DNA of 64,000 nt from Hysterangium stoloniferum (taxonomy: Eukaryota > Basidiomycota > Agaricomycetes > Hysterangiales > Hysterangiaceae): NCBI GenBank assembly GCA_015178975.1, contig WHVD01000003.1, positions 1,116,001 through 1,180,000 on the forward strand, read 5' to 3'. This document shows, in pieces, positions 10,589 to 54,488 of the stretch. Made by a program: the position numbers and the translations under genes. Numbering within the stretch: position 1 is the stretch's first letter; each line of letters starts with the position of its first letter. The notes below the pieces were generated by a model. That model was not told the DNA's origin and ran no database searches. It saw only the letters and a program-made list of their open reading frames with translations.

Positions 10589-10875
10589 TGTCATACGTCG
10601 TCACTATATAACTCGAATGTGAAGATTAGATGCAATTAATGCTAGCCACCACAGTTGTAGTTATTACATATAATGAACACTTTCATGGCGTAATCATTAC
10701 TGCTTTCAAGATATTTGAAATTGATTCTGTTAATACAATGAATGTTAACGCTTATACAGGCACGTACTAAGCCGCGCCAATATGAAAATGCACACAAGGA
10801 ATGTTCGTGATAGTCAGAGGAATGATAATAAATCGAAACACTACGGAGCTCGTTGGGATCACTGTCGGGAGTATC

Positions 10876-13800
10876 TCAAACATAAAACCTGTTATGCAAT
10901 TATAAATAGAGACGAGGGGTGTCAGGACGTGGAAGACGTACTTCTTGTTTATCTGGTATAAAAGCAAGTTCAAATTAAATTTAGCCATGCCCTTGAAAAG
11001 CGGTAGTGACACCCGACTCTCAAATTGCGCCTGTAGGAGATCCTCCATTCGAATGTTGGCAGATGTGATTAGGGTTGACACGCCGGAATGACTGTTGTAT
11101 ACTTCCATTGCAAACAAGCCAACTTCATTCGAAGAAATGACGATATCGATACGGTCAAATTGCCGAGGTGAGAACTGATCAATAGAAAGCAATATGCCTT
11201 TCGCATACAACTCTTGTGCGCTGTATCTGTATGAGCCAAATTGCGGGTTTTTTCCGGATTTCTGAAGCTCCCGCAAGTGGAAATACTGCTTTGTGAAGGG
11301 TATTACGAATCGTTTCTTGCTGTATTGAGTTGTAACATGAGCATTTGCATGATACGATGTATTATATAAACCCACCCTTTACCGCGTTGCATGGTATTCA
11401 TAGCCGTTTGAACATAGCTATGGTAACTGCCAATCTGCTCCTCAAAGTATTTCTTCCGTTCAACAAGATGACTTCGCGCTTCTTGCATGCTTTGAATCTC
11501 ATTCTGACGTTCGAGTCGCTTGCGATGTTTGCTCCTAACGTCACTTGCAATGGCATTTAGGATGCCTTGGTAGCCATCAGAGCGTGTAATTTTGCCCTTC
11601 TTCTCGAGCTGTAGGAGATAGGTAATAGCATTCGCTTTGACATCTCGGAAAGATAGCCTATGGCAATCAAATCAAAAACTGTTGCAAGGATTTAGTTTGA
11701 AATAACTGACGCTCGTATGTCCTCCAGACGGTAAGCCGATTCAGGACCAGTAGTCGAAGGCATACGCCGTTTACGTCTGCGATCGGTCACCAATTCGTGA
11801 TGAACAATGTCTTCCCATATAAATTCATGTTCTTCTTCCACCTCTTGAAAAAGAGACTCGAGCAGATCCTTCGCTGGCTGTACACGTAAGATCGCTAGCA
11901 CCCCTCGTTTGCATTGAACCCAGAGAGCTTTCTCATCGGCCAACGGATCTGTGTGAATGAAATTCGTTATGACAAACAATCCAATCGAGCCACTACATGC
12001 TTGTCAGTACCTTTCACAAGTGCAAATCGATTTGTCAGCTCTAAAGTGATGGCGCGGTCCCTCGCGTCATTTAATTCTTCAGTTCCTAGGTTAGGCACGC
12101 CATCGAGCTCAGTCAGAACAACACGTAAAGGATCATCGTGCCCCGAAACCTGTTGACAGCGTTAACTTAAGTCAATATTCAGAACGTGAATCTTTTAGTA
12201 CCAATTTATCCAAATGCTGCGCTAAGAGCAAATGCATAGAGTAAACTTCGTTGGGAGAGATGTACACGGGTTTTGGCTGAACTGTAACGTCCAAAAATTC
12301 GTGCGCATGGAATTGGGTTTCTGCATCAGGGACATTGGCAACTGTGGAAACATACATTAGCGTGTCGTCTGTTGATAAACTCGATCGTTGTCCACGCACT
12401 TTCAAGAAACCAGCGAGACATTTGGCTAATAGCTGATTCAACAAATCCGTTGATGGGTGTAAGGCAAGGATCATCGTCGCCAAAGAGTTGTCCAGACGAG
12501 ATCTGGGTCAATATTTTTGAAATTTCGGCAAGATTCTTGCGAGAAGCTCCATCAACAGTAGAAGAAACAATGTCAAATGTTTCGGGGGTTCTACAATTTC
12601 TTAGCATTCAAAACATAAAACCAATAACAAGACTTACACGATAGCCGGATTGATGAAACGGTAAAAAATTACACGTCCTATGCAAGCTCCGTACTGCTCC
12701 TCGCCTGCATTGGGGAATCGAGCCTACCAGGTATGAGATACGACGCGACTGGAATAACGCTAGCACATACTCGTAACTCCTGCAAAATCTCACGGGCAAT
12801 GCATTGCATTCCATAAGGCATCTTCTTGGTCGAGTTTAAGATGGCGTCAACAAAGCCACGAGCAAGCGCCTGTAGAACTTGCAAATCTAAAAAGAAGAGT
12901 ACAGATTAGTAAAGGACGGTAAATGTTATGATTGGCATGCCGTACGTCGAATGAACTCCGCCCTGGTATCAGGATCACCGACAGCTTCATGGTATGTCAA
13001 ATCTTTGCGTTTGTTACTCATTTTCCCTGACCGTATTTCCTCTACCTCAATCCGTGCCCGATATATCTGATATTATTTAATACTGGTAAATGACAATGCT
13101 GGCATAAACGCATACGTACCATCGCAGGATCAGTTTCGAGGTCGAGATCTTTCTGATCGATGACTTCCCGTATAACCGTTTGAAGAGTCTCTCGAACATA
13201 GGTGACCTGTTTCGGTCGGACATAGCGAACCGCGATAGCCATATACATGGGGTGACTGTGAATTACCTCTTCTATGCTTTGTGCCGCTTTGATTTCCTTA
13301 CGGATGCAGATCTGAGAGAGAAAAGTCAGCATAGTCAACGTACATAACACATAAAATTTGATGGTAATTACTTGTAAAAGTTTCAACAGTAAGTATTCCT
13401 CCCGTCGATCCTGCCCATAGCCGAACAGCGTGAGCACACCATGCTCTGCAGAACGTTTACTTTTCTCCGGTACGTCCGACCGAGAAAGGTGGAAGAACAA
13501 ACGAGCAAGGTATTCACCTTTGCTCTGAAGCAAATAGAAAAGCTGTTTATAGAACTCAAGCTTCCGTTTGGAAGCATGGTCAAGAGTAGTGGAAGTAGCG
13601 AAAGGATCGCCATGTGCTGCGAGAACAGAAGCACGAGTAGCATGAGCGGCGGCACTATCTGCACCATGACGCCGCCGGGCTTTGATGAGCTCCTCGGAAC
13701 TCTTCACATTTTGAACAACAAGGGCAATCTTTACATCGAGTTCGTTCAACTCAGTCTCCAGTTGCTGATTCTCCCGGATGCTTTCTACCACATGTTTTCG

Positions 13801-16800
13801 TAATTGCTCCAGTTCTATCTCGTCTTCGAAATCCGCTTCAGAATCATCCAATAAGTGGACAAAGTTCTTGATAGTGCCGACATTGACATTCTTGCCTAAA
13901 GTAAGTTGCCGATATTGTTCACGGGTCTCTTTGGCTCTGAATAAAGATTGGATCTTTACGACTTTGCCGAGATTGGCACGGTAGTACTCCATTTTGGCTC
14001 TGAATTTTCTTCGTTCCATCAAGCCTCGGAACAAAGATTGTAGATGAACTGCAGCCGGGTGGCTTTGATGAAGATGGTCACGCCAAGCTAAGAAATCGCT
14101 GCGCACTAATGCGCCTCTCGCTGCTGCCTGAAATTGCACCACGTCTGGCTCAACAAAGTCAAGTTGCTTTTGTTGCTCACGATGACGGTTTCGCGTTAAG
14201 GCAGCCCGAGCGAGAGCCTGGAATCCCCCAACAGCAGTAGCGACTTGAACCTTTCCTAGGGCTTTGTTTATCTCAGCGCGAGCATACCTGGCCAGCTTCG
14301 CCCGGGCCAACGCTTGCATCCCCACGATAGCAGGGGTAGCCTTACGTAGACCACGGATGAGATTCAAAAGCTGTTTACGAGCTAAGTATGCACGTGAGGC
14401 AGCTTGAATCCGCAAGACAATATCCGACGCGTCATCTAAGCTGGCAAGCTGATTGCGAATACGCCGACGCATTAAAACTGCTCTGATATGCGCTTGCATA
14501 CCAACCACATGTGCTTCGACCCGTCTCAAGGCTTGAAGCTGTCGTGTAATACGTCTTCGTTCTAAAGCACCCCGGGCAGCTGCTTGAAGCAAAGCAATGC
14601 TTTGGAAGACAACTGGTGAATGCAATACCTTCTCAATCTCCTTATGGTGCCTTTTCACAATTCTAGCTCTAGCAAAGCTTTGTAATTTTACGACGCAAAG
14701 CTTGCTTCCTCTCAAGGCTGTCTTGAGCTTTGATAAACGACGTCGTGCCAACACACCCCGCACCTGAGCCTGTAACTTGACTGTTACTGTAGTTACTCGG
14801 CGGATCTCAGCGAGACGTTTTCTCCAGCGTCTTCGTGAGACAACCCCTCGAGCTGTAGCCTGCAAGGCGATAACCCATGGCACGAGGTATCGGCGTTGTT
14901 CGCGTTCGTGGCTGAGACGACGTCGCTCTAAAACACCACGACATCGTGCCTGAGTACTGATAACATGACGCTCTCCGAGGCGTAAACGAGCTCGTTGGTT
15001 CATTTGTGTCTTGCGCAAAAGAAAACCTCGGGCCATAGACTGGAGGGCAAGAATAGAACTTTCGCATTCCAACAGAAGCCTGTCGCGACCTACCACACAA
15101 GAAATAAAGTCAGTCCTCTAAAAAGACAACAAAGGTGGGCCAAAACACACGCTCGTCTTCTGTCTCTATCTCCTCTTCAAGCTCGTCTGGCTCCTCGTTT
15201 ATTTCCTTTGCAAGCTCCAAACGCACATTGCCAAAGTTGGGCATTGCCACGCCTGCGTCCTTCAAACCCTTCTGGGTTTGCTGCAGTTGATCATCAGAAA
15301 ATTTGAGTCGGCCAACTAGGTTACCTATTCGTTGAGCAACACCCCGTCGCGCGAGCAAATGACTAGAAGGCCTCAGAAAAGGATATCATGGCACATGTCC
15401 CCACTCACCTTAAAGCATGTATGCAATAAATGACTTTTGGAAGGTTCTTCTTGTTATATAAATCTGTCAACTCAAAAATGAATCCCTATAATTGGTAATC
15501 AGAGAAAGGTCTATAGACTATCAACTAGCTTACTTCCGGCAAACCAACTCGTCGTACGTAGTCAAAGAAGCAATTGATGTTATCCGAATGCCGGTAATCC
15601 AGTTTAGGTGCCTGGACTTAATATATCTATATTCAGTGGATATAAAGCAATTTAAAGAACATTACCTCGTATATCCTGCGTACAACGGCGTTACCCTCGA
15701 AAGACCTCACCAGTTTCGCCAAGACTACCCCATTACGCAAACCTTCTTCCATCTCCACTACACCAAAACCAAGCTCCTCCATAAGACAGCCTTCAATCCA
15801 CTGCTGTGCTTCTCCGACATGACATAAATACTCATAGGCTTGTAGTAAGTGCCGTTGAACATCAGCCCACAAGCCAGATCCTAGTTTCGCGGATGGCAAT
15901 GGTTTAGCAAAACCGGGAGAAGTAGGTGTGCCGGACTTTGCAAGCCGAATCCTGCCACGCATGCCTTGTACATCATCCGCACCTGTGATTCCGGGAATGA
16001 CCAGCTCCGTATCGGGCTGAGTCTCTTTAGTTGGTGACATGTTAAACTCCACCGCATCCCGACCATGTTCAAGATTCCACTTCCGTCGTCGTTCTCGCCT
16101 CGCTTGCAAACGTCGCTCCTCTTCTTCCTCACCTGCGTCTCTGTCTTTAGCATGATTAGGTATTTCATCGTGGTCATTCCCATCGCCACTGGCAATTCTG
16201 GGTAAATGTCTCCCTAACTTACGACCAACGACCATTGAACTTCCATACGTAGCAGCTTTCTTGCCCGCCATATACGAACTTCGGTAAGGCGTAGGGGTCA
16301 TTACTGAAGAAAGCGGACGAGATTCCGCGGAAGATGAGCGTGATGATCGAGACAATGACGATGCTCGGAATAGAGGACGTGGTGTCTCATTAGTGGTAGT
16401 GTCTTCAGCACGATTATATTGAGAATAACGAGTTGATGGGGTCGGTGTGTCTGGAACGGGAAATGGTGACGTATCCTCAATGCTAGCTTTCAGGGGCATA
16501 AAGGGAGCACTAGACGGGGAAGCGATTCTATCGGAAGATGGCAATTGTACAGGCGTCACCACAGCATAATCTGACAAGTGTTTGACAGCTGAAATAGAGG
16601 ATGTTTCCAGATTCACGGATGCTGGAACACGAATGCGGTTGGGGGCAGGCGTTGCAAAGGAAGGTGATGATCCAGATGCATCAGGCGAAAGTGGGAGACT
16701 AATAGGGGTAGGGAGAGTATGTCGCTTCAACCGTGGTGGTGTCGGTGAATGGACGGACGTTGTGGGACCAGAATCCAAATTCTCTGCTCGTTGTAGGATT

Positions 16801-23062: not shown

Positions 23063-26000
23063 TTACTGTACGAACAAAGCCCGCAACATCTCTCTCACTC
23101 GGTGATCTTCGACATGCACAAGTTGATCTAACCTGCTCGCTGCCGTACTTCTTCCTTCAAAACATTTTGGAGGAAGGCATGTAGTAGTCTTCGACTGCGT
23201 ATACAAAGCTACGTCTCTGATAGTCTCGTCGTCTCCTTGTGTTGCCAAGGCAGATAGAAGTTTTGTGGCTCTTGGCACATTTGTAGGATGGTCATGATCG
23301 ATATCTGTCCAAATGTTTCCAGCAATGTGATGTAGCGCTAACCAGCGAATAAACCCTTCAACTGATGGGGCTAGAAGTGCCTTTAAGTACCAGCCTAGCA
23401 TGTGTGCATTTGTTTCAATCGGCCAGAGATACCCCCGTAGGTCATTGGAGAAAACCTCATCTGGACGGGTTTTAATTGTCCGCAATACGTGACTATAGTC
23501 TCCAAACAGAAGTTTACGATAATCCATTGCGTAAGTCATGTCAATAGGTGGCAGGAGTAGCCGAGCAAAGAGAGAATGAGAGAATGATATAGCATCATAA
23601 AGCGCCACAAAATCGGTGTAGAACTGAAAAAAGGGAGTTGCACTTCCGAGCAATCCTCTCGAATGATACTCTAACGGTGCATCGGAGATAGGAAGTGATT
23701 GGAGCTGGCCTCGAGGATGACCGAAAGTGAAGGGCAATAGTAGATTATCCATACAGTGGTTAATAAAACTATCACGAAATATCTCTTCACTTGAGTCAAG
23801 CTGCTGCTGACCATTCTCGAGCATGAACACCTCCATACAGGCAAATATGGCCTCTGGTCGAGATATTTGCGATAACAAGGCTCGTCGGGAGTCCTGACGG
23901 CTGTTAATCTCCTGGCATAAGCTTGTAAGTAATAAGGACAACCTCACGACGTCGGATTCAGTGGCGTCCCAGCCGATAGGTAAGTTCTGGAAGGCTGATG
24001 ATGATCCCGAATGTAGAAGATGGTTTAAAGGCCATGTCGGCCAGCTGTTCCGTATTGGCAGGACAAACTTCGTGTCATAGGATTTCCAACTGTCACGTAA
24101 GCATGATAATGAAGGCGGCATTATGGCACTGCACGCTGATATGGACTCCGGCACGGGCCAGAACGATGAGATATATGATCTGTGTTGTTGAGACATGTCA
24201 TTAACATCAGTTGGATGGGGAAAGAGAGTTTCTGTAAAAAATGGAAGTAATGTCTCCATGTTGCACTTCCAATTGTTCGGAGTATCCACAGAATGTAAAA
24301 TATTTTGGATGAAAACGGGATCCGCGACGCTGCATAGACATTCAAGCAGTCTTTTGACAAGCAGTTCTTCTCCAGGTTGAAAAATTGGCAGGACTTGCAG
24401 AGTTTGTGCTGTCCAAGCCTCTTTCCATGAACCTGACTCCCCGAAATTATCATCCATTTCTTTCAAGGTCATGGACCGATGCCATAAAAGGAGTTCCAGA
24501 CCCAACATGATGGATACGGGCCGTACAAATGCGTGAAACTGTTGCGGCATAGTTTCAACGTCTCCGCTGCCTGTTATCGCCTCAAATAATCCAGGGGGTC
24601 CGTCGTCACTTGTGAAATATCGGCAAAGATCACGAATCTCTTTCGAAGGGAGCCCTAGCGGGTATTCACGAGGATGATTAAAGAAGGCGAGAGAGAGCCT
24701 TCCCACTCCGGCCATAAATTTTGCATCAGCGCTCAAGTCAGCAAAAGATTTGAGCAATACGGAGCTACTACCAGCACTGGCAGGGCGCCATTGCTTTAAT
24801 GTTTTTATCGTCAAATCTATACGCGCACCCAGCCCGTCTTCACCTCTAAACACTCGACCAAGCCTGGATAAAACCAAAGCTTTCTCATCCTCACCTCCTC
24901 TGATGCCATTGATAGAAGCGCTTTCTACCCAAGCGGCGATTGCGTGGCATATGGACGCCCACAGACCAGTGGTAAACAAGATCCCCTCATGAGGATGCCT
25001 CGAAGCAGGTGTACCCAGTTTTTCAGAGAGATCAAGAATCCATTCTACCCACGCCCAGCCCTGCACCTGACTCCATAATATATCATGTGGTGGAGTTGTT
25101 CTATGGGGATCTGTGGAGCACACAATCCATGCCTCCAATAATCCGATATATGCCTTCGCAAGAGAAAGTATACTTTGTCCAGGGACGTCAATGAGATTAG
25201 AAGACAGCCAGTCGGCGATCTGAGTAAAGTGACTTTGTGCCGTGGTTGCGACATGTGCGTAAAGTCCATACCGTGCCAAGAGGGTATAAAATGTCAAGGT
25301 TTCTTGGATAAGTGCAAGACCATTTTGCCACTCCGGCACGTCTATTGAGGGAAGCGGTGTCATCACATACTTCAAAAGTACATCAGCCGGACCAAGAAGA
25401 GCCTGGGCGACTTGTCTCCCACTCTGGGCTAGTATCTGTAGAATGCGAATGGATGCTAACATCGCCTGCAGTTCATCCGATTCTGTAGAGGATTGAAAAT
25501 GCGACGTTAGCACTGCATTTATCATGCCGTTTCCAGCCTCCAGATCGACAATCATCCGCGCATGCTTTTCAAAATATGATAAAACGAGAAGAATGTCAAG
25601 AACTTGCATGTGCGTCAACGATACGGGCGATGAGTACAAAATCAAGTGAGTCTGCATGGCGGGTAGCATTCTATCGAGAGGCAAATATGCTAGCACTGCC
25701 ATCGATTGAGAAAGCTCTTCAGAAACAGAAGCTATCTTTGCCAGACCCGACACTGAAGTTGTACGTGGCGGCGGCGTAAAATCTACCGGCGGGAGGTTGT
25801 CCAAATTGTCAATGTTCAATGCAGCCTGCGTATATCCTACCACGGCCTCCCAGAGGACATCTATCGCTCGTTGACCGACTCCCCCCTTCTCACCTAATGC
25901 ATCAATGGCGGCGTCCAGCATGTCTCTTCTCATCGCGTCTAAATTGACAATATTTGATGCAGATTTTGACGAGTCGTCACTGAAGTATTCTTTGTAAGAA

Positions 26001-27154
26001 ATTTTGAGGATTTTTGCGAGGACTCCCAAAATACTAGCTCGCTGTGCTGGAACCGAACTTCTAGCCAAAAGGAGGAGATCTTGTAAAGTGTATCCAGCTG
26101 GTGAATCGGACGACGCTGGTAAAGTGGAAGCATGGTGGTGTAGGCCAAGATGAGTGGGCAGATCGCGTACTTGAGAAAGTGATAGTTTAACCCCAGATAA
26201 TGAATATCTATTCTCGTCCTTTAGGGTTTCGTGGGGGGGCAACGGGTCACTGCCATCACTTAGGCGAGAAAGTGACGACGAAGGGGGAGATGATAACATC
26301 CAAGCAAGAGATGCATTGTTTTCGGCAGGCGCCTCCGAAGGAAAGAATCTACGACGGATATCCTCAGGAGTTCCGTCATCGGGTAGCGTATTTTCATGCG
26401 ACGAAGATCCCGGCACATACTCGCTCGGAGAGGGTGCGACCTTCATATTACCAAGGAATTTTACATCTTCTCGCGGCATTGAGTCGTCGGGGGGAGGTAA
26501 TAATGCCATAACCCGCCTAGGAGATGAGGGTTGTGATTCATAGACGTGAACATCAGCATCTGTCGGATCCACAAAGCGAATCTTGCGGCCTGTGCGTGAC
26601 GGTAACGATGATTCTGAGGTAGATTCTGTGATCGTCGCCTTTGATGCTTCTACGGGCAAAAATGTTAAACAGAATGAATCAATTGCATAGAATCTCTGAC
26701 CGGTGGCAGGCTTATCGATCGTTCTTTTCTCCCTTGCTTTTCTCACCTTTTGCATCAGACCCCCCACATCTGTTCCAAAATGGTCAAATATTTCCTGGCG
26801 TTCTCGAAGGCGTTGGTCTTCTGACATATTCTCCAGTATTTCAGCGTTCGACCGGGAGATCTCTGACATCAACTCTTCCAACGTGTGAGCTTTCTTATTG
26901 GAGCCCTGGGAGATTTTAGAATGATCATCATAGTGTGATTCTCTCGCCATTTTATCTCGAGAGACATTTAAGCCTGCTTGCACGCGTTCATCTTGCCGAG
27001 AGCGTTTGAATGCACTTGTATGTTTTGAGCGATGCTCAACAACCGGAAAGCCAGATACCGATGAAACATTAGGGTTGACAACAATCTTGGATTGCAAAGG
27101 CGACGAAGCTGAGTTACTCTGCCTCTCCACAACGTCCCGGACAATACTACGCAT
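23063..27154 (-). CDS. RPAP1: RPAP1-like RNA polymerase II-associated protein (Rba50 family)
   Basis: RPAP1/Rba50 proteins help assemble and import RNA polymerase II. The frame encodes up to 1,363 residues. The N-terminal family signature is visible: KKAHTLEELMSEISRSNAEI followed by MSEDQRLRERQEIFDHFG, then a low-complexity stretch and the conserved short C-terminal-domain motif GTPEDIRRRFFPSE at about residue 275. The remaining about 1,050 residues are helical armadillo-like repeats. A likely 51-nt intron (bounded by GTCAGA and CCCGTAG, about 26,635-26,690) lies inside the open frame; its removal gives ATEASKA and a protein about 17 residues shorter. The start is 110 bp from that of the divergent FTS-like gene, so they probably share a promoter. 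Confidence 0.85.
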   Translation of the reverse strand: MRSIVRDVVERQSNSASSPLQSKIVVNPNVSSVSGFPVVEHRSKHTSAFKRSRQDERVQAGLNVSRDKMARESHYDDHSKISQGSNKKAHTLEELMSEISRSNAEILENMSEDQRLRERQEIFDHFGTDVGGLMQKVRKAREKRTIDKPATGQRFYAIDSFCLTFLPVEASKATITESTSESSLPSRTGRKIRFVDPTDADVHVYESQPSSPRRVMALLPPPDDSMPREDVKFLGNMKVAPSPSEYVPGSSSHENTLPDDGTPEDIRRRFFPSEAPAENNASLAWMLSSPPSSSLSRLSDGSDPLPPHETLKDENRYSLSGVKLSLSQVRDLPTHLGLHHHASTLPASSDSPAGYTLQDLLLLARSSVPAQRASILGVLAKILKISYKEYFSDDSSKSASNIVNLDAMRRDMLDAAIDALGEKGGVGQRAIDVLWEAVVGYTQAALNIDNLDNLPPVDFTPPPRTTSVSGLAKIASVSEELSQSMAVLAYLPLDRMLPAMQTHLILYSSPVSLTHMQVLDILLVLSYFEKHARMIVDLEAGNGMINAVLTSHFQSSTESDELQAMLASIRILQILAQSGRQVAQALLGPADVLLKYVMTPLPSIDVPEWQNGLALIQETLTFYTLLARYGLYAHVATTAQSHFTQIADWLSSNLIDVPGQSILSLAKAYIGLLEAWIVCSTDPHRTTPPHDILWSQVQGWAWVEWILDLSEKLGTPASRHPHEGILFTTGLWASICHAIAAWVESASINGIRGGEDEKALVLSRLGRVFRGEDGLGARIDLTIKTLKQWRPASAGSSSVLLKSFADLSADAKFMAGVGRLSLAFFNHPREYPLGLPSKEIRDLCRYFTSDDGPPGLFEAITGSGDVETMPQQFHAFVRPVSIMLGLELLLWHRSMTLKEMDDNFGESGSWKEAWTAQTLQVLPIFQPGEELLVKRLLECLCSVADPVFIQNILHSVDTPNNWKCNMETLLPFFTETLFPHPTDVNDMSQQHRSYISSFWPVPESISACSAIMPPSLSCLRDSWKSYDTKFVLPIRNSWPTWPLNHLLHSGSSSAFQNLPIGWDATESDVVRLSLLLTSLCQEINSRQDSRRALLSQISRPEAIFACMEVFMLENGQQQLDSSEEIFRDSFINHCMDNLLLPFTFGHPRGQLQSLPISDAPLEYHSRGLLGSATPFFQFYTDFVALYDAISFSHSLFARLLLPPIDMTYAMDYRKLLFGDYSHVLRTIKTRPDEVFSNDLRGYLWPIETNAHMLGWYLKALLAPSVEGFIRWLALHHIAGNIWTDIDHDHPTNVPRATKLLSALATQGDDETIRDVALYTQSKTTTCLPPKCFEGRSTAASRLDQLVHVEDHRVREMLRALFVQ

Positions 27155-27264
27155 CTCGAAAGCTAAAGAAATGGAAATGGCTTATGTTATGTAAGCGCTG
27201 GGTGCCACTGTACTGTAGTGGCTTTCATGCTTTCGAACAAATGGGTGTAAGGTCAACCCTCGCA

Positions 27265-39860: not shown

Positions 39861-40901
39861 GATCCGGGTCATGGAGCATGTCATGGTCTATAGATGTGGA
39901 ATTGTATTCCAAAGCAGGGCAAGATCGATCGCTTACTCGTACAATATTAAATATGATGGACGTTGTACATCATGTCAGTTGCTTTTTGTCTATACCCCGA
40001 TAGGTTGTTCCTTGGTTCTCAGGTTGTTCAGGTTGTTCTTTTTTCTTTAAGTTTTACAGAATTCCTTTATCCTTAGTTATGCTCTTGTTTCATTCTCAGG
40101 TTCACACTACCTCTTGTGTGTTTTTATGGCCTGTGTGCCCCTCTCCTTGCAGCTATCTGTCTCTTTTTTTTATACAATTATCTACCTGTGTTGTCCTTTT
40201 ACAGAAACTGATGTTGTGAATATTGACCGAATGAACACCATAAAGATGATTGATGCGAGCCCTCTCCTAAGGTGATAGATACCAGAATAATATTGTTTTG
40301 TTTTATTTACACGGGAGATGTTCTATATACCCCACTCCTACAACTACAGCATTCAAGGCACCTCTTATCCACTCTTGCCCTTTGCGCCACACACATTGGT
40401 ACCCCATGCCTTCACGATCAACGATGCCTGGACCAACCAGTCACTTACACCTTGTGCCTCGTCATCGCCCGAGTCTATATAGCCTTGTTGCAATAGATTA
40501 TATCCGATGAACTCTGAGAGGTCCGATCGAAGCACGGTCATTGTAGCACAAGTCGGTGGATAATTGACCATTAGACGAATGTTCGAGGCATAAACCGCTG
40601 GCCAGGGGTACATATATTGATGGGTGTGTTGGTGGCCCCTTTTCAAGCTGAGAGGGAAAGAGAAGAAAATGACAGGATGAAGAACCATGTGCTGAACAGA
40701 GGAGGGCATTGTCCAGCAAGTGACCTGGTAAAAATGATTCTTTGATTGAAAATTGCCTGTTGCCACCAGAACACATTCCAAGGGGGTGTCACAAATGTAC
40801 AAGCTCAAATTCCAATAAATATTCAATTCAACTTTCCTTTGACATTCCTTTGACTTTTCAACTTGATTTCCAACTTGACTTCCAACTTGACTATTTTTCA
40901 A
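39861..40901. other. Intergenic region between the Opy2-like gene and the transposon nest
   Basis: About 1 kb. A minus-strand frame of 179 codons (40,365-40,904) lacks any recognised domain, and its N-terminal part is derived from short repeats (SQVGNQVEKSK). Short direct repeats of the type CAACTTGACTTC (40,840-40,890) lead into the 19-bp minisatellite. Confidence 0.5.
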
Positions 40902-41034
40902 CAATCTTGAATATCTTTGACAATCTCAAATATCTTTGACAATCTCAAATATCTTTGACAATCTCAAATATTTTTGACAATCTCAAATATCTTTGACAAT
41001 CTCAAATATCTTTGACAATCTTGAATATCTTTGA
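40902..41034. repeat. 19-bp minisatellite, seven units
   Basis: Seven head-to-tail units of CAATCTCAAATATCTTTGA, with first and last units reading CAATCTTGAATATCTTTGA. It ends 4 bp before the divergent gypsy LTR begins. Confidence 0.95.
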
Positions 41035-41256
41035 CAATTGTTATGACTGTGTCGCAACCCAAAGATATCTAATGATGCTACCACCTCAAGTTATTGTCAC
41101 GTCATCATATCAGCCACCATCGGAAAACCTGACACTGATGTACACCCTCACAGTGATCAAACCCCACTACAGCCCCTGTCAAATTATATTGTACTATCTG
41201 GTTATACTCTGATATGTCCTTTTATCCTTTGATGATCCATTTATTCTATGTCTCAC

Positions 41257-45365: not shown

Positions 45366-46730
45366 TCACACTTGCATTTTCCGTCTAATCATGCCTCCGA
45401 GAAAAAATGCCAAGCCAAGCGGCGAAGCAGAATCTTCCACTCTCAAGTCTCCTTTCCTGTATACAGCCTGAGCTACTCAGAGAACCCCGTTACCAGAAAC
45501 TTCCGAAGAATCTCGCTTTGTGGAGATTACTGGCAATGCTGAAGAAGTAACTGAAGCAACCAAACCCGAAGCAACTGAAGAGATTAACAATCAACCAGTT
45601 CCGGAACACGAACCCGAGGATGGCGACCAACCTCAGGATAGTGGTTCCAAGAAGTCTGTGAAAAAGAAACCGGCTCTCGACCCTGAAGAGACATGGGAAT
45701 TGTTCTCAGGTACTCTAGGATCCTTTAATGAATTCCTTAAAAGTAATATCAAGGAAAAGGAACCTGGAGTCAACAAACCTGAACCATTCACTGGCTCAAA
45801 CCCGAAGAAATTGCTGACATTTCTTATGCAATGTTGATTCAACTTTCGGGACCGCCTGGCTGCATTCGCAACGGATGACCGAAAGGTAAATTTCGCACTC
45901 TCATACCTTAAGGATTCCGCAGCAGCCTGGTTTGAACCCACATTCTCTGGCCTCACCTCCGAAGACCCCAATTGGCTTCATGATTGGGATGCCTTTGTTG
46001 AGGAACTCAAACCCAACTTCAGTCCCTACAACCAAACCAGCACTGGAGGCACCCCAAGATTTTTGGATTTGCAAAACCTTCAGAAAATCTTGCTATTTGG
46101 CCAAATTTGCTAAGCATTCTTTGAACTGGAAAAACTGTTTGAAAATCTTGGGTTTTAGTAGGTTTTTCTGAGGACAAAAATTGTATCTGAAAACCCTAAA
46201 AATGGTGATCAGGAAATTCTAAGGAAACATTGTTGGAAATAGCCTATTTTCTGTGGATTTTCTAAATAGGAAAATTCTTAAAAAACCCTGGGTTTTGTTA
46301 GGGATTTTCCACCCAACAGAATTCTATGAAAAATGTAATAATTTGCCTAGAGAAATCAATTGAAAACCACATATTTCTACTCAATTTTTCTGCTCAGGGA
46401 ATTGGGTGAAAACTGTAATTTTTTGCCAGGAAAATCTTGTGCCAAGACAAAGTTTTGTTAATGTTTTGTCAAGGGGAAAACCATAATAAAATTGACAATT
46501 TAATTATATGGGAAATCTTTGAATAATTATAGATTTCAATAAGATTTTCCTTGACCACAAACACTATAGAAATTCAAAAAATGTGTTGGTGAAATCTTGA
46601 AGAAATGAACAATTTCACATGAGTTTCTTAAAGGTTTTTCAAGATGAGAAACCTTGAACTGATTTTTCCTGATTGAGCATGATTCACAATTGTTTGGAAT
46701 GGTACAGTGGGATTCACAAATATTTAAGAG

Positions 46731-47796
46731 GATTGTTTTAGATTCAGGTAGATTCTTTTAGATTCAGATAGATTCTTTTAGATTCAGATAGATTCTTTTA
46801 GATTCAGATAGATTCTTTGAGATTCAGATAGATTCTTTTAGATTCACATAGATTCACATAGATTCAGATAGATTCACATAGATTCAGATAGATTCACATA
46901 GATTCAGATAGATTCTTTTAGATTCTTTTAGATTCACATAGATTCAGATAGATTCTTTTAGATTCTTTTAGATTCACATAGATTCACATAGATTCATTTA
47001 GATTCAGATAGATTCAGATAGATTCAGATAGATTCAGATAGATTCAGATAGATTCAGATAGATTCAGATAGATTCAGATAGATTCAGATAGATTCAGATA
47101 GATTCAGATAGATTCAGATAGATTCAGATAGATTCAGATAGATTCAGATAGATTCAGATAGATTCAGATAGATTCAGATAGATTCAGATAGATTCAGATA
47201 GATTCAGATAGATTCAGATAGATTCAGATAGATTCTTTTAGATTCACATAGATTCAGATAAATTCTTTTAGATTCAGATAGATTCTGTTAGATTCAGATA
47301 GATTCAGATAGATTCAGATAGACTCTTTTAGATTCACATAGATTCAGATAGATTCTTTTAGATTCTTTTAGATTCTTTTAGATTCTTTTAGATTCTTTTA
47401 GATACTTTTAGATACTTTTAGATTCTTTTAGATTCTTTTAGATTCTTTTAGATTCTTTTAGATTCTTTTAGATTCTTTTAGATTCTTTTAGATACTTTTA
47501 GATTCTTTTAGATTCTTTTAGATTCTTTTAGATTCTTTTAGATTCTTTTAGATTCTTTTAGATTCTTTTAGATTCTTTTAGATTCACATAGATTCAGATA
47601 GATTCTTTTAGATTTACATAGATTCAGATAGATTCTTTTAGATTCACATAGATTCAGATAGATTCTTTTAGATTCAGATAGATTCTTTTAGATTCAGATA
47701 GATTCTTTTAGATTCAGATAGATTCTTTTAGATTCAGATAGATTCTTTTAGATTCAGATAGATTCTTTTAGATTCAGATAGATTCTTTTAGATTCA
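46731..47796 (+). repeat. 10-bp repeat array, left arm
   Basis: About 106 units of GATTC followed by AGATA, TTTTA or ACATA, in near-perfect 10-bp register. Includes homogeneous blocks of GATTCAGATA (about 46,990-47,230) and GATTCTTTTA (about 47,350-47,580). Confidence 0.97.
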
Positions 47797-47817
47797 CCCT
47801 AAACCATAAAAAAATCT

Positions 47818-49470
47818 CAGAGAATCTATATATCTGAATCTATGTGAATCTAAAAGGATCTGTGTGAATCTATCTGAATCTATCTAAATCTATCTGAATC
47901 TATTGGAATCTAAAAGAATGTATGTGAATCTAAAAGAATCTATCTGAATCTATGTGAATCTCAAAGAATCTATCTGAATCTATGTAAATCTAAAAGAATC
48001 TATCTGAATCTATGTGAATCTAAAAGAATCTATGTGAATCTAAAAGAGTCTATGTGAATCTAAGAGAATCTATCTGAATCTATCTGAATCTATGTGAATC
48101 TAAAAGAATCTAAAAGAATCTATCTGAACCTATGTGAATCTAAAAGAGTCTATGTGAATCTAAGAGAAACTATCTGAATCTATTTGAATCTATTTGAATC
48201 TATTTGAATCTATCTGAATCTATCTGAATCTATCTGAATCTAAAAGAATCTAAAAGAATCTATCTAAATCTATGTGAATCTAAAAGAATCTATCTGAATC
48301 TATGTGAATCTAAAAGAATCTATGTGAATCTAAAAGAGTCTACATGAATCTATCTGAATCTATCTGAATCTATGTGAATCTAAAAGAATCTAAAAGAATC
48401 TATCTGAATCTATGTGAATCTAAAAGAGTCTATGTGAATCTAAGAGAAACTATCTGAATCTATTTGAATCTATTTGAATCTATTTGAATCTATCTGAATC
48501 TATGTGAATCTATGTGAATCTATGTGAATCTATGTGAATCTATGTGAATCTATGTGAATCTATGTGAATCTATGTGAATCTATGTGAATCTATGTGAATC
48601 TATGTGAATCTAAAAGAATCTATCTGAATCTAAAAGAATCTATCTGAATCTAAAAGAATCTATCTGAATCTATGTGAATCTATCTGAATCTAAAAGAATC
48701 TATGTGAATCTACAAGAATCTACGTGAATCTAAAAGAGTCTATGTGAATCTAAGAGAATCTATCTGAATCTCAAAGAAGCTATCTGAATCTAAAAGAATC
48801 TATTTGAATCTCAAAGAATCTATCTGAATCTAAAAGAATCTATCTAAATCTATGTGAATCTAAAAGAATCTAAAAGAATCTATCTGAATCTATGTAAATC
48901 TAAAAGAATCAATCTGAATCTATGTGAATCCAAAAGAATCTAAAAGAATCTATCTGAATCTATCTGAATCTATCTGAATCTATCTGAATCTATCTGAATC
49001 TATCTGAATCTCTCTGAATCTATCTGAATCTATCTGAATCTAAATGAATCTATGTGAATCTATGTGAATCTATCTGAATCTATGTGAATCTAAAAGAATC
49101 TAAAAGAATCTATCTGAATCTATGTAAATCTAAAAGAATCAATCTGAATCTATGTGAATCCAAAAGAATCTAAAAGAATCTATCTGAATCTATCTGAATC
49201 TATCTGAATCTATCTGAATCTATCTGAATCTCTCTGAATCTATCTGAAGCTATCTGAATCTAAATGAATCTATGTGAATCTATGTGAATCTAAAAGAATC
49301 TAAAAGAATCTATCTGAATCTATGTGAATCTAAAAGAATCTAAAATAATCTATCTGAATCTATATGAATCTATGTGAATCTATGTGAATCTATGTGAATC
49401 TAAAAGAATCTATCTGAATCTCAAAGAATCTATTTGAATCTATTTGAATCTACCTGAATCTAAAACAATC
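47818..49470 (-). repeat. 10-bp repeat array, right arm
   Basis: About 165 units of the reverse-complement forms TATCTGAATC, TAAAAGAATC and TATGTGAATC. The array is longer than the left arm and shows higher-order duplications (for example the segments at about 48,870-49,030 and 49,090-49,260 are near copies), so it has expanded by unequal exchange or slippage. Confidence 0.97.
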
Positions 49471-50803
49471 CTCTTAAATATTTGTGAATCCCACTGTACC
49501 ATTCCAAACAATTGTGAATCATGCTCAATCAGGAAAAATCAGTTCAAGGTTTCTCATCTTGAAAAACCTTTAAGAAACTCATGTGAAATTGTTAATTTCT
49601 TCAAGATTTCACCAACACATTTTTTGAATTTCCATAGTGTTTATGGCCAAGGAAAATCTTATTGAAATCTATAATTATTCAATGATTTCCCATATAATTA
49701 AATTGTCAATTTCATTATGGTTTTCCCCTTGACAAAACATTAACAAAACTTTGTCTTGGCACAAGATTTTCCTCGCAAAAAACTACAGTTTTCACCCAAT
49801 TCCCTGAGCAAAAAAATTGAGTAGAAATATGTGGTTTTCAATTGATTTCTCTAGGCAAATTATTACAGTTTTAATAGAATTCTGTTGGGTGGAAAAACCC
49901 TAACAAAACCCAGGGTTTTTTAAGAATTTTCCTATTTAGAAAATCCACAGAAAATAGGCTATTTCCAACAATGTTTCCTTAGAATGTCCTGATCAACATT
50001 TTTAGGGTTTTCAGATACAATTTTTGTCCTCAGAACAACCTACTAAAACCCAAGATTTTTGAACAGTTTTTCCAGTTCAAAGAATGCTTAGCAAATTTGG
50101 CCAAATAGCAAGATTTTCTGAAGGTTTTGCAACTCCAAAAATCTTGGGGTGCCTCCAGTGCAGTGATGCCGAAACTGTGCTTTCTAATCTCAAAATGAAA
50201 GACACCCAGCGCATCACCGATTACATCGTCCAGTTCAACAACCTCGCCGCATGTTGTGACTGGAATGATTCAGCCCTCCGTTACCAGTTTTACTCCGGCC
50301 TTCCATCTTGCCTCAAAGACGAAGTTTCCAAAGGAGAGACCGGCAAGCCGAAGACCCTCCCTCTCATGCATCTGAAAGCCCAAAACGCAGACGCCCGATA
50401 CTGGGAACGACGCTCAGAAATTAGTTGCAAGAACCCCTCGGACAAGAAATCGTCGGACAATAAGAACACCAACAAGTCTGGTAATCAAAACACCAACAAC
50501 AGTGGCAACTCGACCTCCGACAAGAAGTCCGAAAACAAAGGGTCTAACGACAAAAAAGGCAAGGGAAAACAGTCAAATAAGTCTCAAGACAAAGACAAAC
50601 CCGACTTAACTGGCAAACTCGGCTCCGATGGCAAGCTCCTACCACAGGAAAAGCAATGCCAAATGGACAACAACCTTTGTTTGTTGTGTGCAGATCCCGG
50701 ACACTGAGTCGCTGCATGCCCAAAAGCCACAAAAGCCCGATCGGCCAATACGGCCACGACCTCACAACTGGCCAAGCCGGCTGCCGAGTTGAAAAAAGAT
50801 TAA

Positions 50804-53800
50804 GCAACTCTCTGGATTCTGTGCAGTTGGAGAGTTGCGTTGAATCTCCTTGCACACCAGAAAATTGTCACCTTAACGCATCCACCTTGTATGATCCTAA
50901 TTCCTTGTTCATAAATCTTACTTCGGAACCTCTCGGGAATCTCACTTTTTGAGCCCTCATAGATTCAGGTTCAACCCATTGTTTTATAGATACAAGTTTT
51001 TCCTGAAAAAATCAGTTAAAAACCTATGCAATAGACCCGATTCCGCTCCAACTTTTTGATGGTACCTCAAACTCCATAATCTCGCAAGCCTGCGAACTCT
51101 GACTTCAGTTCTCGTGTGGAACCTTTCAGACAGTTACGCTTTTTGTAACACAGTTGGACCCGAGTTGCTCCGTGGTTCTAGGACATAACTGGCTCACCCA
51201 CTACAATCCGTTGATTGATTGGGTATTGGGCAGTATCCATTTCCGAACCCCATCGGCACCCGATACGACTGGTCCATTTCCGCCTGTTTCAGCAAATATG
51301 GCCTCTACAGCACCTCCGGCCCCCGTGGCAAATCCAAGCTCTCCGCTGCCCATCTCTCTAATAAACGCCGCAGCTTTTATGAGAGCCATCAAGTTGGATG
51401 GCTCCCGAGCATTTACAGTCAATCTTAAAGTTGACGAAGTCACCGGTTACTTTGCATCCCCGGTGGCCGAACTGATCGCAGATTTGGAAGGTGTTCCCGA
51501 AAAATACCATGAATTTGCAGATGTCTTCAGTAAACAAAAAGCCAATTGACTCACCTCTCACAGGCCTTACAATTTGAAAATTGATATTGAAGATGGTTCA
51601 CATCCGCCCCTAGGCCCAGTTTATCCTCTCTCGCAGTCCGAATTATTGGCTATCCGAGATTTCTTGGACGAACATTTGGCTATAGGTTTTATCCGACCCT
51701 CAAAGTCTCCTTATGGAGCCCCTGTCCTATTTGTTCGGAAAAAAGATGGTTCCCTTCGGCTTTGTGTTGACTTTCGAGGACTAAATGCGATCACTCGAAA
51801 AGACAAGTACCCATTACCACTAATCTCCGATTTACTCGATGCCCCTCAGAAGGCCTGAATTTATACAAAGATAGATCTCAAGCATGCCTATCATTTGGTT
51901 CAGATCGCCAAAGGCGACGAATGGAAAACGGCTTTTCGCACTCGCTATGGCTCCTTTGAATGGTTAGTGATACCTTTCGGCCTCACCAACGCTCTGTCGG
52001 TCTTTCAACGTTTTATCAACGACGTCTTTTGCGACCTCCTTGACATCTTTGTCATTGTGTACTTAGACAACATCCTCATATTCTCCGAAGATCCTACACT
52101 TCATCACGAACACGTTCATGAAGTTCTCCGAAGACTCTGAAAACATGGTCTTTTTGTGAATGGTAAAAAATGTTCTTTTGATGTCGACACAGTTGAATAT
52201 TTAGGTTTTATGATGGGACCTGACGGTCTCCGCATGGATGACTCTAAAATTCAAGTCATTCAAGATTGGCCAGAACCCCGAAAGGTTAAGGATATTCAAT
52301 CCTTTTTAGGCTTCGCCAATTTTTATCGTCGTTTCATTCACAACTACTCAAAAATTACCGTTCTGCTCACTCGTCTTACTTGCAAAGACACCCCGTGGAT
52401 TTTCTCCGAAGAATGCTGATCGGCATTCCAGGAATTGAAAAGTGCATTCACATCTGCCCCTATTTTGTCACACTGGAAGCCCAACGTTCAACTCATTGTG
52501 GAAACTGATGCCTCAGACTATGTGCTTGCTGCGATATTGTCCATTCTGGACACTGATGGTGAAGTACACCCAGTAGCTTTTCTGTCTCGCACGTTTTCAG
52601 CGCCCGAACTCAACTATGATGTTCACGATAAGGAACTACTCGCAATATTTGAAGCTTTCAAGACATGGCGACATTATTTGGAAGGCTCGGCCCACCCGGT
52701 AGATGTTATTACAGACCACAAAATTTAGTTTACTTTTCAACCACAAAACTTCTCACCCGTCGACAAGCTCGATGGTCCAAATACCTCTCCGCTTTCAACA
52801 TGGTAATTCGCTTCTGTCCCGGCCACCTTGGTGGAAAACCCAACGCTATGACTAGATGATGGGACGTCTATCCTAAAGAGGGGAGTAGCGACTACGCCAC
52901 AGTTAATCTGCATAATTTCAAGCATATGTTTTCATCGGAACAACTGTCTGCGTCTATCCGAGCCACTTACCTCATTCATCCAGTCTTGTGAAGTGTTATC
53001 CTTATGGATACCGAAAAGTTACATCAAGACATACTATCGGCAATTCCATTAGACCCAGTCACCAAAGCACACCTCGATAACCCGTTTGACCCCGATCAAC
53101 CCCGATGGTCATTAGACCCACAAGGTTTCATTAGATTTGACAATCACATTTATGTACCGGATTCTGACACCCTTCGGCTGCGAATCCTACAACATAAGCA
53201 CGACCACCCAATCTCGGGACATTTCGGCCTCAATAAGACCCTCTCACTCATTAGAAGAGAATATACATGGCCCGGCATCCGAGATTTTGTTAAGCACTAT
53301 TGTAAATCTTGTACTACATGTTTACGCTCTAAATCACAGTGACACAAACCATATGGCCTACTCAAACAATTACCGATACCAGAAAAACCTTGGAACTCGA
53401 TTTCTATGGATTTCATCGAGCACCTACTGGCATCCGAAGGTCACACAGCAATCCTAGTTGTTGTGGATCGGCTCACAAAACAAAGTATTTTCATTCCAAC
53501 ATATGACACAATAACATCTGTACAGTTAGCTGAATTATTTGTCACCCATGTATTTTCCAAGCATGGCGTTCCATCACATGTCACATCTGATCGTGGATCC
53601 GAGTTTGTCTCTCACTTTTTTAGGTCACTCAGGAAAGCACTAGACATGAAGCTACATTTCACTTCGGGCTATCACCTGGAAGGCGATGGCCAAACTGAAC
53701 ACATGAATCAAACCTTGGAACAATACATCCATGTCTATTGCAACTATCAACAAGACAATTGGAAATCACTACTACCGCTAGCTGAATTCGCATATAACAA

Positions 53801-54488
53801 CACTCCTAATGCCACTACTGGCATTTTGCCTTTCTTCGCAAATAAAGGCTACAACCCCAACATCGCAATCCACCCGGAATGCGATCTTGCATCCACCCGT
53901 GCTCAAGACTTTGTTATAAACCTTGACGAGCTACATCAAGAACTTCGTAAAACTATCGCAATGGCTCAAGAACGATACCAATGGTCTGCAGATAAGAACC
54001 GACTTCTGCCTCCTGACTTCAAGATTGGAGACCGAGTTTTCATTAAAGCCGAGTTTTTCTGAACTACTAGACCTTCTAAGAAGCTCTCTGAAAAATATTT
54101 AGGTCCTTTTGAAGTTATAGCACAAGCCGGCACACTTTCATGGATGCTTCAGCTCCCCGACAACATGCGTGCAGTGCACCCAGTATTTCATGTATCTATG
54201 TTAGAACCTTGTGTTGCTAACAGTATACCGGATCACATACAACCACCACCTCCACCCATGATTATTGATGGGGAACCCGAATTCGAGATATCAGAGATCC
54301 TAGACTCAAAAATCGACAATCACCGACACTCATGCAAATTACTTTATTTGGTTAAATGGGCTGGCTATGAAGGTACAGATGAAGAAACTTCATGGATCCT
54401 AGCTACAGAGCTCGGTAATGCCTCGGAAATCATTTTAGGGTTTCACCAAGCTTATCCGAACAAACCCGGTCCTCTCAATTCTTTATAA
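50804..54488 (+). pseudogene. pol: Chromovirus pol (protease, RT, RNase H, integrase, chromodomain)
   Basis: Reads in the -1 frame relative to gag. Protease motif ALIDSGSTHCFID (about 50,953). [36 protein letters not shown], and the active site altered to YLDN (52,060-52,071). RNase H: ETDASDYVLAA. Integrase: HHCC zinc finger (HPISGHFGLNKT to CKSCTTC), catalytic MDFIE, TSDRGSEF and GQTEHMNQTLEQY; then KKLSEKYLGPFEVI. A C-terminal chromodomain (EFEISEILDSKI, LLYLVKWAGYEGTDEETSW) makes it a chromovirus. Eleven in-frame TGA codons plus a 1-nt deletion near 52,724 inactivate it. Confidence 0.92.

Follow-up and report, generated by a model that had tools for sequence, protein, structure and literature searches.

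What kind of element can be filled with a 10-bp repeat for most of its length and still move, and what is such a repeat there for? Both questions are raised by a stretch of 64,000 nucleotides from the ectomycorrhizal fungus Hysterangium stoloniferum (contig WHVD01000003.1, positions 1,116,001 to 1,180,000; hereafter the window, meaning this whole stretch), which holds a 4.1-kb insertion composed of two inverted arms of such repeats. This insertion is one copy of a real and abundant family of non-autonomous fold-back elements that have EnSpm-type ends and whose 10-bp arrays change rapidly. As to its nature, the reading that we consider probable is that of a non-autonomous fold-back of the EnSpm/CACTA type, moved in trans by way of its ends, whose arrays are a fast-changing passenger minisatellite.

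An initial annotation of the window had described the insertion as bounded by CACTGG ends and a 3-bp duplication and as occupied for two-thirds of its length by about 270 units in 10-bp register, inverted between the arms, and in all these respects it was right (Table 1). The two arrays comprise 106.6 + 163.2 units, that is, 65.5% of the element; 102 GATTC motifs lie without exception to the left of the centre and 147 GAATC motifs to the right of it, numbers that compare with a mean of 29 and a maximum of 44 motifs in 200 first-order Markov sequences, and 246 of the 247 gaps between neighbouring motifs (those at most 100 bp apart) are multiples of 10. The outer unique sequence, previously put at some 700 bp, is indeed inverted, with 97.1% identity between the two arms over the outer 620 bp, but measures about 640 bp and is followed by a transition of about 50 bp. 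The inverted arms, which meet at a short conserved centre, make up nearly the whole element, and its longest stop-to-stop frame has 75 aa. The conserved centre (47797-47807) contains a single CCCTAAA, which resembles a telomere-type repeat unit.

Sequences lacking positions 46,041-50,163, with one CAG kept, had been named as the expected empty sites, and the joined 300-bp flanks do match across the join at all 40 places scored (of 412 candidates), with 91-93% identity. The element is shown to be mobile, with precise ends and a 3-bp target site duplication (TSD). Once the element and one CAG are removed, a single open frame spans the join; judged by eye, it looks like the gag of a long terminal repeat-type retroelement, and an integrase core match lies downstream of the insertion (53343-54059).

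The remaining copies, whose existence the initial annotation had anticipated, were sought in 111 Mb of genome sequence. The exact 13-bp end CACTGGAGGCACC has 127 + 123 occurrences, where its reversed control has 6 + 5, and the 19-mer CACTGGAGGCACCCCAAGA has 73 + 72, where the control has 0. The first 100 of the 250 13-mer places yielded 30 pairs (11 short, 19 long) and 40 unpaired places, and 20 of these pairs were retrieved (3 short, 17 long), which makes 21 copies with that of the window; since copies were chosen by two exact 13-bp ends, the counts lean towards intact copies. One further record (L008) was the same place as L009 and was excluded from the TSD count. All 21 copies show a perfect 3-bp TSD of varied sequence and all have CACTGG..CCAGTG ends, the feature by which they were selected. 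Three of them are miniature inverted-repeat transposable elements (MITEs) of 364-376 bp that lack GATTC/GAATC altogether; over their terminal 175 bp they share 77-82% identity with the window arm. The other 18, window included, are large (3,039-5,949 bp), and 15 of these are rich in GATTC. Over the 18 large elements, 3,903 of the 3,954 GATTC/GAATC gaps of at most 100 bp are multiples of 10.

The three other large copies (L014, L015 and L016) constitute a sister subfamily: between ends identical to those of the GATTC type they carry different 10-bp units, of the GACTC, GACTT and GACAC types, together with a GC-rich stretch. Their register is looser (78, 81, 82, 73, 87 and 46% on the six strands counted). 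Genome-wide, three in-register GATTC units occur 4,253 + 4,598 times, against 54 + 36 in the control; 2,590 of these matches fall within the retrieved and window elements, which suggests, by our estimate, about 50 GATTC-type giants in the genome. A 23-mer of the GAC-type array is found 109 + 54 times (control 0). The GC-rich module, which sits inside all three GAC-type fold-backs and has a Gly/His-rich reading, is possibly a captured gene end, for which no donor gene was identified; its 197-aa reading had no protein match at E 0.001, in a search whose reach stops short of much longer proteins. The module of L016 has 100 genome matches (65 candidates, 40 scored), several of them arranged as inverted pairs, so that the module is part of the arms of many copies. 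Among the exact-ended pairs listed, taken from the first 100 of the 250 13-mer places and the first 100 of the 145 19-mer places, the largest spans 12.0 kb on contig C442; its middle 6 kb (L066, G000:C442:351500-357500) holds, amid GAC-type arrays, a retroelement with reverse-transcriptase-like and tyrosine-recombinase-like frames, DIRS-like as judged by eye. The middles of the pairs on C156 (7.5 kb) and C176 (6.9 kb) are solid array.

How stable are these structures? The outer 620 bp are 95-98% identical between the arms in 14 copies, and the long hairpin envisaged earlier, which might be a source of siRNA, is structurally possible. The CCCTAAACCAT centre is present in 14 of the 15 GATTC-rich copies and in the middles of two further ones. 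A tree of 36 rows (34 of them different), in which each of the 18 large elements is represented by the outer 620 bp of its two arms, separates A and B arm types within three GATTC subfamilies; four A/B clades were starred by the tool and one B clade has a support of 92/94, whereas for L011, L020 and L023 the placing of the B arm is not settled. The arm type matches the orientation of the centre in all 14 copies that have it (L025, whose centre is not intact, and L014-L016 are not part of this table of 14 rows), which shows that these GATTC-type copies transposed as whole elements and that their arms have not been homogenised since. The sister subfamily differs: the arms of L014 are each other's closest kin in the tree, and those of L015 and L016, four in all, group in a single clade.

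The arrays behave differently from the outer arms. In L012, L024 and L026 the outer A arms do not differ at all and the B arms match at 99.35% or more over 620 bp, but the B arms are 3,332, 4,627 and 3,222 bp long, respectively; the outer arms of L010 and L019 are 99.4 and 99.5% identical, yet their B arms hold 271 and 70 motifs. Between copies less than 1% apart in the outer arms, the number of motifs per arm can thus vary by a factor of up to about four, and among the GATTC-rich copies the motifs per strand range from 29 to 321, so the figure of about 270 units stands for the window copy and has to be replaced by a widely varying length for the family. In alignments of seven pairs of related copies, 116 of the 137 gaps are multiples of 10 bp. 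All this shows that the arrays change mostly by whole 10-bp units, and faster than the outer arms change by substitution. The B arm is longer than the A arm in 11 of 14 copies. Sequence common to the surroundings of other copies is also found within some, L020, L023 and L025 among them, and probably represents nested insertions; arm length in bp is therefore not array length alone in those copies, and nested sequence contributes to the longer B arm in some.

To which superfamily do such ends belong, and where is their transposase? Long inverted arms with tandem repeats inside them are those of a fold-back, and the TSD of 3 bp is not the 8-10 bp or so of Mutator-type fold-backs; together with the CAC(T)..GTG termini, it agrees with EnSpm/CACTA, in which 2-3 bp are duplicated. 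That the ends belong instead to another superfamily with 3-bp TSDs, such as PIF/Harbinger, or to Plavaka, seems to us improbable. Many Harbinger elements prefer TWA target sites, unlike the 21 TSDs found here, which have no fixed sequence. For fungal EnSpm, passages of PMC12730594 give CAC..GTG ends and 3-bp TSDs, and for Plavaka TGT..ACA or CATCA..TGATG termini, from which CACTGG..CCAGTG differs; the boundary obtained by comparing two Plavaka copies of this genome likewise reads ..TTAACA, not ..CAGTG. What such an assignment has in its favour is that the genome holds 68 Plavaka matches and 12 PF02992 matches (10 above the curated cut-off), and that a partial search revealed no transposase gene with these ends. 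Paired ends were not found within 1.5 kb of any of the 12 PF02992 loci, in about 10 kb around five of them, or at the two of the 68 Plavaka loci compared, and a PF02992-type transposase is absent from the copies read; single look-alikes of the end with at least two mismatches do occur near PF02992 loci. Patterns diverging after the 13-mer were found at 15, 0 and 8 places; all 12 that were cut out from among the 15 are family members, although that pattern, reversed as a control, gave 10 places as well. The superfamily is assigned from the ends and the TSD, by which, and not by protein, EnSpm is the best fit. Of the CACTA-like description in the initial annotation, the ends, the TSDs, the many copies and the empty sites have been corroborated, and no autonomous copy has come out of the partial search. 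Other transposons of this genome deserve mention in their own right: one PF02992-bearing element (L041:2443-9428) lies between different ends, CACTGTAG..CTACAGTG, and its flanks allow TACA to be read as a 4-bp duplication instead of one of 3 bp; two Plavaka copies (L055 and L056) are 98% identical over 3.4 kb, and several of the top matches score nearly alike and have long open frames, so this Plavaka family may have been active recently.

If the arrays are passengers, a transposase encoded elsewhere, now or formerly, would recognise the 13-bp end and the adjacent subterminal sequence, which is what MITEs and giants share. The array would be dispensable for transposition; it would lengthen in the manner of a minisatellite, through slippage or through unequal exchange within the palindromic arms, and its exact register would follow from the duplication of a 10-bp unit and owe nothing to selection for helical phasing. 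Several observations weigh against this reading. No autonomous copy ending in CACTGGAGGCACC emerged from the partial search, which covered the transposase loci named above and the exact ends among the places listed; in the outer arms no 7-mer exceeds its shuffle counts, so that subterminal repeats of the classic kind are not clearly in evidence (GAAAATC is seen 6 times in the window arm against 0.36 expected, 0 of 300 shuffles, a motif picked after looking); and all 18 large copies carry 10-bp-period arrays, sister subfamily included, as a function would predict likewise. This last point sustains the idea that the arrays have a function, as secondary sites to which the transposase or an accessory protein binds, copies with more sites competing better for limiting transposase, which we regard as unlikely, if the strongest of the alternatives. 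Both array types retain the 10-bp period, GATTC arrays strictly and GAC arrays loosely, and arm repeats of Galileo can bind transposase, according to passages of PMC3688188. Nonetheless, the MITEs transposed without the motif, GATTC/GAATC is absent from all seven outer arms examined (those of giants and three MITE arms), and the sister subfamily has a different unit. Nor is the core clearly constrained: the flanking A and T show 98 and 92 rare variants, the core positions G, A, T, T and C show 102, 62, 7, 83 and 104.5, and the three variable positions 68.5, 34.5 and 10.5, in a test confounded by shared unit types, where changes at variable positions are often hidden as other common units. The low count at the first core T is explained only in part by T>C being a common unit. 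The cooperative binding on one face of the helix suggested in the initial annotation may still occur but receives no support from these results, and none of the tests made reveals a role for the array.

A broader version, in which the arrays offer hundreds of helically phased sites to transposase, accessory protein or host factor (e.g., Hsf1) and competition for the protein drives runaway growth, is a shade more doubtful; if true, this would be a hyperparasitic transposon that wins through multiplied binding sites. Could a host factor such as heat shock factor be bound in its own right, each element being a platform or sponge for Hsf1? A TTC every 10 bp does constitute the step-type heat shock element, described in part of PMC4894976 as nTTCn7TTCn7TTC, and TTCn7TTCn7TTC matches 213 times in the element but once in the window's remaining 60 kb. 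However, TTC or GAA occurs in 32% of random 10-bp units of the same composition, any of which would produce this step pattern, L014, L015 and L016 hold just 2, 0 and 0 matches, and of the ten positions it is the C of TTC that has the highest number of rare variants, all of which makes this explanation very improbable. It is equally hard to believe that the arrays are assembly artefacts, with repeats collapsed or expanded and length differences that are not biological: short repeats do assemble poorly, and the analysis was made on an assembly, not on reads, so the exact lengths of single arrays may be wrong, but the centre, the arm types, the register and the flanking TSDs are found again and again at places independent of each other, and the blocks by which copies differ lie dispersed along the array. 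A trans-mobilised fold-back with a passenger array is the explanation that we prefer.

Beyond the element, the window contains the features listed last in Table 1, among which the IQ-motif, RasGAP and RasGAP_C matches probably belong to one IQGAP-like gene with introns.

Table 1. Features of the window, by position within it.
Feature	Position	Strand	Remarks
Whole fold-back element	46041..50160	.	4,120 bp; ends and TSD, empty sites
TSD CAG, left copy	46038..46040	.	
TSD CAG, right copy	50161..50163	.	
13-bp terminal repeat CACTGGAGGCACC, left	46041..46053	+	exact copies genome-wide 127 + 123, control 6 + 5
13-bp terminal repeat, right, reverse complement of left (GGTGCCTCCAGTG)	50148..50160	-	
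Outer non-repetitive arm, A type	46041..46680	+	97.1% identity to other arm over 620 bp; A clade
Transition stretch, first GATTC motifs irregularly spaced	46681..46730	+	
A-arm array of GATTCNNNTA units, ~107 units	46731..47796	+	Tandem Repeats Finder
Centre between arrays, starting with CCCTAAACCAT (47797-47807)	47797..47830	+	
B-arm array, inverted, ~163 units	47831..49462	-	Tandem Repeats Finder
Outer non-repetitive arm, B type	49521..50160	-	
Left flank, gag-like frame of the retroelement hit	45891..46040	+	joined flanks open and matched elsewhere
Right flank, same gag-like frame as left flank	50164..50313	+	
19-bp tandem repeat ACAATCTCAAATATCTTTG, outside the element	40901-41038		7.3 copies
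RPAP1-like protein	23066-27181	minus	99% identity over 99% of length to a Hysterangium stoloniferum protein
IQ-motif, RasGAP and RasGAP_C matches in neighbouring frames	10770-15117	minus	

The interest of the family goes beyond this locus. In an ectomycorrhizal fungus, a gene-less family offers many complete copies, array-less sister MITEs and a sister subfamily whose unit is different but equally long, and the combination of near-identical outer arms with very different arrays amounts to a natural experiment on the origin and growth of short satellites inside palindromes. It also allows one to test whether transposase binding is what the repeats in transposon arms are for. No description of the family was found in the titles and abstract openings of the fold-back, tandem-repeat, CACTA and fungal literature, mostly open-access; for Hysterangium and transposons, the genome paper (PMC7550596) was the only one found, and its main text, as distinct from its supplements, contains none of the terms 'CACTA', 'EnSpm' and 'MITE'.

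Fold-backs with repetitive arms have been described mainly from Mutator- and P-type elements, and here they appear with EnSpm-type ends in a mushroom genome. The FB (Foldback) elements of Drosophila, which have repeats of 10, 20 and 31 bp and are grouped with Mutator-like elements, share with this family the arms of short tandem repeats and the nearly palindromic form, but have long TSDs, unlike the 3-bp TSDs and CACTG ends found here. Tetris and the MITE DAIBAM of Drosophila virilis, as presented in parts of PMC4079207, resemble it as a non-autonomous fold-back whose outer end is common to a MITE, whose arms vary in tandem-repeat number and whose autonomous copy was not found; they have a unit of about 220 bp, TSDs of 8-10 bp, an assignment to Mutator by their authors and three structurally complete copies, unlike the 10-bp units, 3-bp TSDs, CACTGG ends and many complete copies of the Hysterangium family. 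Galileo, of the P superfamily in Drosophila, also has long arms with internal tandem repeats but, going by passages of PMC3688188, its arms measure 0.5-1.2 kb, its repeats are few, its transposase is known and binding has been demonstrated, whereas for the present family binding is a conjecture. With fungal EnSpm/CACTA, as outlined in PMC12730594, it has the CAC..GTG ends and the 3-bp TSD in common, and satellite arrays and gene fragments have been reported inside plant CACTA elements (passages of PMC8978399); unlike those fungal and plant elements, as far as these sources describe them, the copies read contain no transposase and inverted 10-bp arrays fill most of the element. The architecture is that of FB, Tetris and Galileo; what sets the family apart is its ends, its host, the size of its unit and how many complete copies it has.

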